Of a stretch of DNA of 54,228 nucleotides, positions 30,847-35,227 are shown one piece after another. Location: positions 1 through 54,228 of the forward strand of contig CANQXH010000004.1 in assembly GCA_947627745.1 (NCBI GenBank), written 5' to 3'. The translations under genes and the position numbers were made by a program. Source of the stretch: an uncultured Oscillospiraceae bacterium (GTDB taxonomy: Bacteria > Bacillota > Clostridia > Oscillospirales > Oscillospiraceae). How positions within the stretch are numbered: position 1 is the first letter of the stretch; each line of letters begins with the position of its first letter. The notes beneath the pieces were generated by a model. It was not told where the DNA came from, did no database searches, and was given only the letters and a program-made list of their open reading frames with translations.

Positions 30847-30875
30847 TTGACAAAACGCAAACCGTGCCGTATAAT
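30847..30875 (+). promoter_or_regulatory. consensus promoter TTGACA-17-TATAAT for tRNA-Val
   Basis: Perfect hexamers and 17-nt spacer. Confidence 0.9.
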
Positions 30876-30888
30876 AGCAACTGCTCCC

Positions 30889-30964
30889 GGACGATTAGCT
30901 CAGCTGGTAGAGCATTCGCTTGACGTGCGAAGGGTCAGCGGTTCGAGTCCGTTATCGTCCACCA
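30889..30964 (+). tRNA. tRNA-Val (anticodon GAC)
   Basis: GGACGAT/ATCGTCC acceptor, D arm GCTCAGCTGGTAGAGC, anticodon arm TTCGC-TTGACGT-GCGAA, T-loop TTCGAGT, encoded CCA. Confidence 0.95.
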
Positions 30965-31391: not shown

Positions 31392-31420
31392 TTGACGGTT
31401 AGGGGAAAAAGTGGCATAAT
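31392..31420 (+). promoter_or_regulatory. promoter TTGACG-17-CATAAT for TIR operon
   Basis: Near-consensus hexamers, 17-nt spacer, 43 nt upstream of GTG start. Confidence 0.75.
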
Positions 31421-31463: not shown

Positions 31464-33272
31464 GTGAGTGCTTCAAAGAAAAAGTATGATATATTTATAT
31501 CCTACCGCCGGGATGGCGGGGAATACACGGCGAAGATCCTTCGGGATAAGCTGGAGGACCTGGGCTACACGGTGTTTTTCGATGTGGAGTCCCTGCGCTC
31601 CGGCAATTTCAACAAGGAACTGTACTCCGTCATTGAGAATTGCCGGGACTTTCTGCTGATCCTGTCTCCCAATGCGCTGGACAGGTGTAAGGATGAGAAC
31701 GACTGGGTGCGTTGTGAGATCGAGAAGGCCCTGCAGTGCGAAAAAAACGTGGTCCCCGTGCTTCTCCGGGGCTTCACTTACCCGGAGGATCTGCCGGCGT
31801 CCATATGCGACGTGCGCTATAAAAACGGTTTGGAGGCGAATTCTCAGTTTTTTGACGCCTTTATCGAAAAGCTCCAGGATTTCCTGGTAACGAAGCCCCC
31901 CTTTTTCCAAAGATTGCGCAAGAACCCGGTTTTCAAGCGGGTGATCCCGACGATCATCACGCTGCTTCTGGTCTTTGCCCTGGGCTTGGGGACATATGTC
32001 ATTTGGGACCACTCTCGGGCCGTTTTTCCCCGAACCTCCGTCGAAAAGAGCGTCACCTCCGAGGTGGTGTATTATGTTGAGAACCACTTGACGGACCTGG
32101 ATGTGATGGCCGCCGGGGTGGAAGAGGCGTTTGACGCCGCGCAGCGTTACATCAGCGCCGGTGTGGAGGACAGGACCGAATTTGAGCTGGCCCTGGAGAT
32201 CGGTTTTGCCGCCCTGGATGACAGCGATATCGACTCCCTTGCCCCAGCCGACGGCTTGCTGGAGCGGGTCGGGGCGCTGAAGGGGACGCCCTTTGATACA
32301 GCGGATTTGTCGGCAATGCATGATGTGGTCCGCATGTCCCGGGAGCAATGGGCCGAGGATCTGGTGTATCTGGATTGGCTGACAGGATCCGACGTCATCC
32401 TCCGGAAGGATGTGCGGCTGAACCTCATAGACCTCTACCGGACGACCTTTGAGGAGGACCTGCGGGGCCACGCCATCAACGCCAACGAGCTCCTGCTGCC
32501 GATCACAGACAGCTCCTTGCTTTCACAGATTAAAAATGACTTTCTGCCCATGCTGCTGCGTGTGCCGCTTTCCGCCGGCACCTGGGAGAGCGACTTGGAT
32601 ACCCTGGAGGCGGAGGCAAAGTCCTGCTATGCCAGGTCCAGGGAGGCGGTGAAGGATATTTCCGCCCTTGTGGGGAACACCAATGTGGCAAATATGAACA
32701 CCCGGGAGAGTCTGATCCGGGAGTACATGATCCAGGGCATGACCCGGGAGGAGGCGGAGACCTTGTTCCTCCAGATGAGCAAGCTTATGGAAACCTACCA
32801 GAAGCTCCTGCCCGAGACGGGCGACAGCGCGGACGTGCTGTGGATCAAGATGGAAAGCGCCATTGAGAATCGGGATTTTGACCGGGCTAAGATCTGCCTC
32901 AACGCCTACGAGGCTGCCTCTGAGGGCGAGGAAGCGCTTATTTCCGCCGTCAGGGCCTTCCTGAGCTACGCGCCCGATGCCGGGCTCAATTATGGGGTGC
33001 TGATCAGCGCTTGTACCGATTCCGAGGAAGCAAACAGCGTTTATGAAATCGGGGATATTGTCATTGCCCTGAACGGCCAGCCCTGCCGGACGGTAGACGA
33101 TTTCTTAGCCTTCGTGAATTCCCTTACAGAGGAGACGGGCTACGTCTACACCGCAACCGTCCTCCGGAATGACGGGCAGGGCGGCATGAATGTTCTGGAG
33201 CTGGATGCGAACCTCGAGGTTTCGATCAATATACGTTCCCTCTCCCTGAACGGGAGTGAGGCAGAAGATTGA
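31464..33272 (+). CDS. TIR domain - TM - helical extracytoplasmic region - PDZ-like protein
   Basis: KKYDIFISYRRDGGEYTAKILRDKLEDLGYTVFFDVESLRSGNF...WVRCEIEKAL (TIR); VIPTIITLLLVFALGLGTYVIW (TM); YEIGDIVIALNGQPCRTVDDFLAFVNSL (PDZ-like). Confidence 0.88.
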   Translation: MSASKKKYDIFISYRRDGGEYTAKILRDKLEDLGYTVFFDVESLRSGNFNKELYSVIENCRDFLLILSPNALDRCKDENDWVRCEIEKALQCEKNVVPVLLRGFTYPEDLPASICDVRYKNGLEANSQFFDAFIEKLQDFLVTKPPFFQRLRKNPVFKRVIPTIITLLLVFALGLGTYVIWDHSRAVFPRTSVEKSVTSEVVYYVENHLTDLDVMAAGVEEAFDAAQRYISAGVEDRTEFELALEIGFAALDDSDIDSLAPADGLLERVGALKGTPFDTADLSAMHDVVRMSREQWAEDLVYLDWLTGSDVILRKDVRLNLIDLYRTTFEEDLRGHAINANELLLPITDSSLLSQIKNDFLPMLLRVPLSAGTWESDLDTLEAEAKSCYARSREAVKDISALVGNTNVANMNTRESLIREYMIQGMTREEAETLFLQMSKLMETYQKLLPETGDSADVLWIKMESAIENRDFDRAKICLNAYEAASEGEEALISAVRAFLSYAPDAGLNYGVLISACTDSEEANSVYEIGDIVIALNGQPCRTVDDFLAFVNSLTEETGYVYTATVLRNDGQGGMNVLELDANLEVSINIRSLSLNGSEAED

Positions 33273-33577: not shown

Positions 33578-35227
33578 ATGAACGACACGCATTTTCAGCT
33601 AGCGCTGGGCGGCGACCTGCCGGAGGCGGCTGATCAGGCGGCGCTGGTCCTGGAACAGGCCGGCGCCGTATTGGAGACACTGGGGGAAGCCGGAAACGGT
33701 CTGCAACTGCTGATAAGTCCCTCCTACACGGGAGAAGGCTGGGCCTCCTGGGCCGGAACCAGAGGACTGAAGGCCTTCGGTGTTCTCAAAGACGGGGATG
33801 CGCCATGGCCCGGGGAATCTGTCGGGACCCTGGTGATCGATACCGCCATTCGATCCGCTGCCGGGGAGGCCCTGTGCAATGCGGCGGATTTGGTGCTGGC
33901 AGTGTGGGATGAGGATGTGGCCCAGCGCTTCGGCGCGGTGTGGGAGCTGATCGAGCTCTGCCGCCGTCACGGCACGCCCTGCGTGTGGATCTCCTCCCGG
34001 ACGGGGACCCTTTACTGGGTGGGCAGCTCCTGCTTTGAGGAACTGGAACCGGAAAAGCTCCGGAGCGTCATCACTGCCTACGGCAGCGGACCCCTGGAGC
34101 CGGCGCCGGATACTCAGACGCGCATTCCGCTCCTAAAGCTTGGACAGACGCTCCGCCGGGCTTTTTTGAATAAGTACCGGGCGGAAAAGGCCGAGACTAC
34201 TCCGGAGAAGGATAGTCTCCTGCTGGACAGCTTTTCCATGGAATCCGAGGGCGCGGGCTGCGAGCCCGCGCGCAGAAAGCTTCTGGATAAATTCCGGGCC
34301 TTTGACAAGGCCGCCGTGGGGCTGAACAGCCAGTATCAGGCCGTTACATATTGGCGGGCGGTGCTGCCCTTCCTGGCGACAGTGTTTCTGGCTGTCGGCT
34401 TTTATGCCGAGACGATCCTCAGCGTCACAAGTATGTCCTCCGGACTCCGGGCGGCAGTGGCTGGGACGGGCTTTCTGATCCATGGGCTTTTAAATCTCTA
34501 TGTCTTCTTCCTTTCCCGCAACCGGGGCGTCAAGGAAAAGCAGCGAGCCTTTATCGAGAATCGCTACAAAGCGGAGATTCTCCGTGTCCTCATCCATCTG
34601 GCGCCTTACGGCATTGGCGTGGACCTGCGCACCATGTGCGGCGAAAGCGACGCCGCGGCCTTCCGGCGGCTGGCCGCCGAGGACCGCCCCTCGGAGCAGA
34701 AGCTTGACGCCGCTTCCAGCCGCACGGCTCTGGGCCATATTGACGAGATGCTTCAAGACCAGATCTCCTACCACCGCGCCTCTGCGGAGCGATACAGCCG
34801 CGTTGTCACAAGTCTGGACCGGTGGAACAAGGTCATATTCACGGTAGGTTTTGTCACCGTGATCCTCCGGGCGCTTTTGCAGTTTTATGTGTCTTTGTTC
34901 CCTCTGGTAGGCTCCATCAACGGGGCGGACCTGAACGGATATGTGCGCTCCTTTGCCAATATGGCCGCGCTGCTGCTGCCCGGCTGGGCCTCCTATTTTG
35001 CCACGAAGATGAACCTGTGTAATTTCCGCTACAATCTGGATAACCACACTCGCATGGGCACGAGGCTTACCGCCGTTCTGAACCGGGTGCGGGGTCTGGA
35101 AGAACGGGAGTCGGTCCCTGTTGACGTGATGGGATTCGTGGCGGAGGATGTGTCCCGGAGCATGATCCAGGAGGATACGATGGCTTGGGAACACAAGCTC
35201 GGCGACTTCTCGGTGACGGCGCTGTGA
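33578..35227 (+). CDS. SLOG-like Rossmann domain fused to four-TM (SLATT-like) membrane module
   Basis: ADLVLAVWDEDVAQRFGAVWELIELCRRHGTPCVWISS; four hydrophobic segments near 34350-34990; RBS overlaps RyR stop. Confidence 0.75.
   Translation: MNDTHFQLALGGDLPEAADQAALVLEQAGAVLETLGEAGNGLQLLISPSYTGEGWASWAGTRGLKAFGVLKDGDAPWPGESVGTLVIDTAIRSAAGEALCNAADLVLAVWDEDVAQRFGAVWELIELCRRHGTPCVWISSRTGTLYWVGSSCFEELEPEKLRSVITAYGSGPLEPAPDTQTRIPLLKLGQTLRRAFLNKYRAEKAETTPEKDSLLLDSFSMESEGAGCEPARRKLLDKFRAFDKAAVGLNSQYQAVTYWRAVLPFLATVFLAVGFYAETILSVTSMSSGLRAAVAGTGFLIHGLLNLYVFFLSRNRGVKEKQRAFIENRYKAEILRVLIHLAPYGIGVDLRTMCGESDAAAFRRLAAEDRPSEQKLDAASSRTALGHIDEMLQDQISYHRASAERYSRVVTSLDRWNKVIFTVGFVTVILRALLQFYVSLFPLVGSINGADLNGYVRSFANMAALLLPGWASYFATKMNLCNFRYNLDNHTRMGTRLTAVLNRVRGLEERESVPVDVMGFVAEDVSRSMIQEDTMAWEHKLGDFSVTAL

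Follow-up and report, generated by a model that had tools for sequence, protein, structure and literature searches.

In Thoeris, the TIR protein ThsB makes a nucleotide signal that switches its partner protein ThsA, which in type I systems is a SIR2-SLOG protein (PMC13232231, PMC11204291). Members of the phage RyDEP family remove the cyclic ADP-ribose signal against Thoeris, and phage RyR-domain proteins have only recently been found to bind immune signals of the cyclic ADP-ribose type and to cleave them (PMC13232231). RyDEP binds and cleaves 2'/3'cADPR through the residues H75, W78, H100, and D117, H75 and D117 being the catalytic residues, and most of the RyDEP homologs tested bind cADPR without cleaving it, despite high conservation (PMC13232231). 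Firmicute phages, in addition, carry pairs of TIR and SLATT genes (PMC9503650). A term search of the RyDEP paper (PMC13232231) returned no treatment of bacterial operons, and no description of host RyR-TIR operons was found in the open literature; Burroughs 2015 and a 2025 TIR preprint, which possibly list such loci, were outside that search.

Here we describe three co-directional genes, separated by gaps of 12 and 8 nt, from an uncultured, gut-type Oscillospiraceae bacterium (Table 1). They were identified in a stretch of 54,228 nucleotides, which is referred to as the window. Gene 1 encodes a TIR protein, gene 2 a RyR-domain protein, and gene 3 a Rossmann-like membrane protein. Promoter-like sites are about as numerous in the region as expected by chance, and the one before gene 1 is aptly positioned. 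Internal terminators showed no excess over chance within the cassette, and the complete set of three co-directional genes was not encountered again in the genomes searched. The initial annotation had presented gene 1 as a receptor governing its own TIR. The receptor-like TIR-TM layout holds, but gene 1 does not stand alone: its observed operon with a RyR gene and a multi-TM Rossmann-like protein points not to a lone receptor but to cyclic ADP-ribose signaling that has its membrane output in a separate protein. Because gene 1 heads an operon, the reading as a lone HtrA-like PDZ sensor was also set aside. We give about an even chance to the reading of the operon as a membrane-tethered, Thoeris-like cADPR alarm module in which a membrane effector is joined by a RyR protein that serves as receptor or off-switch.

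Table 1. Positions of the features of the cassette and its surroundings within the window.
Feature	Position	Strand	Evidence
tRNA-Val(gac), upstream of cassette, marks variable insertion site	30889..30964	+	
Sigma-70-type promoter-like site TTGACG-17-CATAAT, TG before -10	31392..31420	+	43 nt upstream of start codon
Gene 1 (P0001), TIR-TM-ectodomain-PDZ protein, 602 aa	31464..33272	+	Open frame, domain matches
SARM1-like TIR domain, aa 6-144; SYRR at aa 13, DVESL at aa 40, catalytic-position E85	31479..31895	+	
Single TM helix, aa 163-181, basic RLRKNPVFKR before; predicted N-in, C-out	31950..32006	+	Hydropathy, positive-inside count
Predicted extracytoplasmic region, aa 190-508, mostly helical (low confidence)	32031..32987	+	Acidic; AlphaFold2
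PDZ-like domain, about aa 509-585	32988..33218	+	Weak Pfam score, profile comparison, HtrA PDZ match
Gene 2 (P0002), single RyR (Repeat12, PF02026) domain protein, 94 aa	33285..33569	+	
Gene 3 (P0003), Rossmann-like domain and about 4 TM helices, 549 aa from ATG 33578	33578..35227	+	
Gene 3 N-terminal Rossmann-like domain, aa 1-170, conserved DG/FGAxWE motif	33578..34087	+	AlphaFold2 secondary structure
Gene 3 membrane region, TM near aa 255-283, 288-314, 418-442, 452-480	34340..35017	+	

The order ApbE then tRNA-Val is kept in three congeners. Beyond the tRNA, the DNA is unrelated to the cassette in both congeners with enough sequence, and since it also differs between congeners, the tRNA marks a variable insertion site. 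No att-like exact direct repeats of the tRNA-Val end were found. Judged from these comparisons, the cassette is accessory and not conserved in the genus; defense cassettes typically occupy such accessory sites next to a tRNA. The tRNA gene itself is accompanied by a consensus-perfect promoter-like sequence, TTGACA-17-TATAAT (30847-30875).

Gene 1 starts with GTG, and an AGGAGG-type ribosome-binding site is located ~7 nt 5' of the start. The Pfam models TIR_2 and TIR match at 56.9 bits (cut-off 28) and 31.3 bits (cut-off 21.3), respectively, and the nearest solved relatives of the domain are the TIR domains of SARM1 (E = 1e-27). SYRR, FxDVE, and DWVxxEI align between the two proteins, and with DWVRCEI of gene 1 placed on DWVHKEI of SARM1, E85 falls on the catalytic Glu. 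This Glu is the catalytic residue of SARM1, and the acidic residue previously proposed at the catalytic position of the TIR domain is hence borne out by the alignment. In our best reading the TIR domain of gene 1 looks catalytically competent. The likeness to SARM1 and TIR-1 is confined to this domain with its catalytic motif; gene 1 has no ARM or SAM domains and carries a TM helix and an ectodomain instead. No full-length homologs of P0001 were found in 200 family genomes, 391 class genomes, and viral contigs.

The Lys/Arg-rich stretch and single TM helix noted earlier in gene 1 were recovered as one hydrophobic peak at aa 163-181, with six K/R in the preceding 20 residues and three after it. 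The C-terminal region that follows comprises 421 aa with a net charge of -44. Residues 190-508 have no Pfam match and belong to no known family, and the homolog-free AlphaFold2 model of P0001 (pLDDT 38) is helical at low confidence. As to the PDZ-like ending that had been claimed, profile comparison and Pfam differ. Comparison of the C-terminus with a profile of 15 PDZ segments from related genomes gave P = 1.1e-6 (probability 91%), beyond the controls, in which shuffles and non-overlapping segments reached P 0.013 or worse, but PDZ_6 missed the curated Pfam cut-off of 27 with 15.9 bits for the whole protein and 18.6 bits for the isolated C-terminus. The sole match to this C-terminus in a relative, a weak one, was the PDZ end of an HtrA-type protein. 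The best reading is that of a predicted cytoplasmic TIR domain, one TM helix, and an extracytoplasmic region that ends in a PDZ-like domain.

The protein encoded by gene 2 matches PF02026 at 95.5 bits (cut-off 27.4) over positions 1-90 of 91. Animal ryanodine receptor chains align through Repeat12 with almost the full length of P0002 (best E 4e-50, 6uhi); in contrast to the animal receptor, P0002 is a stand-alone 94-aa protein, and its membrane partner is separate, with about four TM helices. Phage RyDEP belongs to the same PF02026 fold family, and H31, W34, H56, and D73 of gene 2 correspond in identity and spacing to H75, W78, H100, and D117 of RyDEP (offsets 0, 3, 25, 42), a comparison made by published residue identity and spacing only. 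Among nine bacterial RyR proteins, H, W, and D were observed to be invariant, and the second H is often T. Unlike RyDEP, gene 2 is encoded by a bacterium and lies inside a TIR operon, which argues for a component or safeguard of the system rather than an evasion protein.

Gene 3 was assigned the start codon ATG 33578, because an upstream TTG would overlap gene 2 and the homologs start at ATG. The gene 3 family comprises four homologs, the others being 35-40% identical to P0003, and has in common an alternating strand-helix N-terminus and ~four helices. The AlphaFold2 model built from these 4 sequences has a mean pLDDT of 61, and therefore no fold match is confident; the search with it returned TM1055 (1RCU), which we take to be a LOG-type protein, as a weak match (prob 0.99, target TM-score 0.47, E 0.2). 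Matches of the same model to P-glycoprotein and toxin folds were regarded as helix noise. Comparison with LOG and DprA profiles by hhalign, using small alignments, gave P 0.2-0.6, the same as for shuffled columns. SLATT_1 reached 12.9-14.5 bits (E 0.037-0.11), below its cut-off of 26.3, and SLATT_4 11 bits against a cut-off of 55. In the class genomes, SLATT_1 gave only two low matches, to proteins that by eye resemble SMC/RecN-type ATPases, and thus no SLATT profile was obtained for comparison. With scores below the SLATT cut-off and a negative LOG/DprA comparison, gene 3 is called SLOG/SLATT-like and not a member, membership being unproven. In the cassette, as in TIR and SLATT pairs and SLATT conflict systems, a TIR gene neighbors a membrane effector predicted to respond to nucleotides; the cassette differs from both by the N-terminal Rossmann-like domain of gene 3, its two helix pairs, its score below the SLATT cut-off, and the presence of RyR. 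Strong matches to gene 3 occur in 2 of 391 class genomes, the window included; besides the window, there were none among 399 phylum genomes, and none were found in plasmids and viral contigs.

With Thoeris the cassette shares the proposed switching of a partner protein by a TIR-made nucleotide signal. It differs in that gene 3 lacks SIR2 and macro domains and cannot be proven to hold a SLOG domain, that the TIR domain is membrane-anchored with an ectodomain, and that a RyR gene lies inside the operon. The best match of the cassette to a Thoeris model is TIR-only and far below the cut-off (ThcB4, 41.7 of 220 bits). No ThsA-type effector (SIR2-SLOG, TM-macro, or other) was identified for genes 2 and 3 in NCBIfam/PADLOC, a comparison that did not extend to the newest types (10.64898/2025.12.03.692087). 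The cassette would thus work like Thoeris in our proposal but, having no ThsA, fails Thoeris membership.

Adjacent RyR and gene 3 homologs were observed in Oscillospiraceae SIG695 (L050/L057), Clostridia RGIG7446 (L058), and G744 (L062), with gaps or an overlap of a few nt. The RGIG7446 locus is a close copy of the SIG695 pair. Two further lineages are represented overall. In G744, a divergent TIR-TM-propeller gene (beta-propeller) is located 117 bp upstream of RyR and gene 3. In SIG695 and RGIG7446, a DUF3604/PHP gene precedes the pair and no TIR gene adjoins. RyR and gene 3 are kept together with or without TIR, and RyR thus belongs with gene 3, the TIR-TM gene having joined at least twice or been lost. 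The DUF3604 (PHP-type phosphoesterase-like) genes (L050 6628-7815 and L058 4724-5911) might encode an alternative signal-handling enzyme.

Of the 28 RyR loci of the order, 12 lie within 5 kb of a TIR gene, where 0.38 would be expected (P about 1e-16, on the assumptions that genes are placed at random and that loci are independent); without the window the count is 11 of 27 (P 6e-15). Since defense genes cluster, part of this excess may be clustering. The directly adjacent RyR-TIR pairs (L037, L041, L068, L159, L160, and L170) argue for an association beyond mere clustering. In two fecal 'phage' records that carry RyR (L092 and L093), neither a TIR gene nor gene 3 is present.

In order to see how common the layout of gene 1 is, TIR proteins were located in 34 genomes, and 40 regions together with regions obtained earlier were scanned, giving 49 TIR proteins. 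A single TM helix after the TIR domain followed by at least 150 further residues was found in 9-10 of the 49, a fraction that may not hold elsewhere, the genomes having been picked for RyR genes. The tenth protein, L143, is probably no true case, because it is an NB-ARC/TPR protein. In the remaining nine, the N-terminal flank of the helix is more basic than the C-terminal flank, and the ectodomains are acidic (net -29 to -69); they include beta-propellers, leucine-rich repeats, DUF5050/DUF6273, and RHS/MORN repeats. Such varied ectodomains on a basic-flanked TIR-TM base mark the predicted inside-out TIR layout as a recurrent class with exchangeable sensors. The initial annotation had considered a transmembrane TIR of this kind unusual, which does not hold for the layout, present in about one in five TIR proteins, but does for the PDZ ending: the search for other TIR-TM-PDZ architectures returned only gene 1 of the window among the 49. 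A RyR gene is nearby for 6 of 10 TIR-TM-ectodomain proteins versus 5 of 39 other TIRs (p 0.005; p 0.03 without the window and G744). The window's own genome encodes a second TIR protein of 428 aa with one predicted TM helix (G000:C5:11100-11351, L158), and no RyR match was found in the 3 kb examined at that locus.

In the alarm module proposed here, the ectodomain and PDZ-like end of gene 1 would sense an outside cue, which may be the end of a peptide, an unfolded protein of the envelope, or the entry of a phage, and sensing would cluster the cytoplasmic SARM1-like TIR domains. The clustered TIR would convert NAD+ to ADP-ribose and a cyclic ADP-ribose isomer, to which the RyR domain of gene 2 would bind. 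Gene 3 would be the effector, switched by the signal directly or via the RyR protein, and would perturb the membrane; this role and the nature of the trigger are the weakest links, and envelope damage, the trigger named in the initial annotation, is a conjecture. The RyR protein may be a co-receptor on gene 3 or a signal-removing off-switch, and the former is slightly favored, since the pairing of RyR with gene 3 persists at loci that lack an adjacent TIR. The same pairing counts against a purely off-switch RyR protein, a host glycosidase or sponge that clears the cyclic ADP-ribose of stray TIR activity in the manner of the ring nucleases of type III CRISPR, leaving gene 3 alone to receive the signal. 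Conservation of the catalytic RyDEP residues H75 and D117 as H31 and D73 and the activity of RyDEP family members against Thoeris speak for this explanation, but other tested phage homologs do not cleave despite high conservation (PMC13232231), and we regard it as rather unlikely.

Gene 1 could also act by itself, as a receptor-NADase that depletes NAD+ and thereby kills, with genes 2 and 3 forming a separate module downstream by chance. SARM1-like TIRs do deplete NAD+, and RyR and gene 3 occur without a TIR neighbor in SIG695 and RGIG7446; however, the gaps of 12 and 8 nt, the one promoter-like site, the lack of a terminator excess, the independent TIR-TM gene adjoining RyR and gene 3 in G744, and the strong RyR-TIR association make a chance neighborhood improbable. 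A role in housekeeping rather than immunity has little probability as well. Here the PDZ-like domain would, as its counterparts in HtrA/DegS do, respond to unfolded proteins of the envelope, and cADPR would adjust membrane transport via gene 3, which agrees with the HtrA-type resemblance of the domain, the predicted outside location of the ectodomain, and the lack of a recognizable classical toxin gene in the cassette. Housekeeping envelope-stress signaling fits poorly with a cassette at a variable tRNA site that is not conserved in the genus, and the quite different ectodomains of the relatives look more like a changing sensor repertoire.

A host RyR domain with RyDEP-like residues, encoded in a TIR operon beside a membrane protein, suggests that RyR domains serve bacterial TIR signaling, and the layout suggests that interchangeable ectodomains can drive such signaling from the outer side of the membrane. 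Whether ryanodine-receptor domains act as receptors of cADPR has been debated for a long time, and the cassette offers a compact system in which to test it. In its most specific form, which we consider doubtful, an outward-facing PDZ receptor switches the cytoplasmic TIR and cADPR gates the membrane protein via a separate RyR-type domain, with other sensors in relatives. If true, this circuit would be a prokaryotic counterpart of the disputed link between cADPR and the ryanodine receptor, with propeller, LRR, and RHS sensors on the same TIR-TM base.

Other arrangements of RyR and TIR genes were also observed. L068 (153-2463), L037 (7567-15431), and L048 (7860-13538) combine a TIR, a single RyR gene, and a membrane or NAD-binding-like protein, and L037 and L048 contain a further gene with a fused RyR-like domain. 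Such fused RyR-like genes beside TIR genes suggest that several kinds of RyR-TIR system exist. Near the single RyR genes of L042, L043, and L038 there is a gene that, judged by eye, resembles CARF-type (DUF1887-like) nucleotide-sensing proteins. At L041 (5546-9186, G542), a single RyR gene is located between two TIR genes, whose TIR domains are C-terminal in one and N-terminal in the other. At L051 (4354-11957, G246), a protein with three consecutive RyR-like matches adjoins two TIR proteins, one of which is a TIR-TM-DUF6273-DUF5050 protein.
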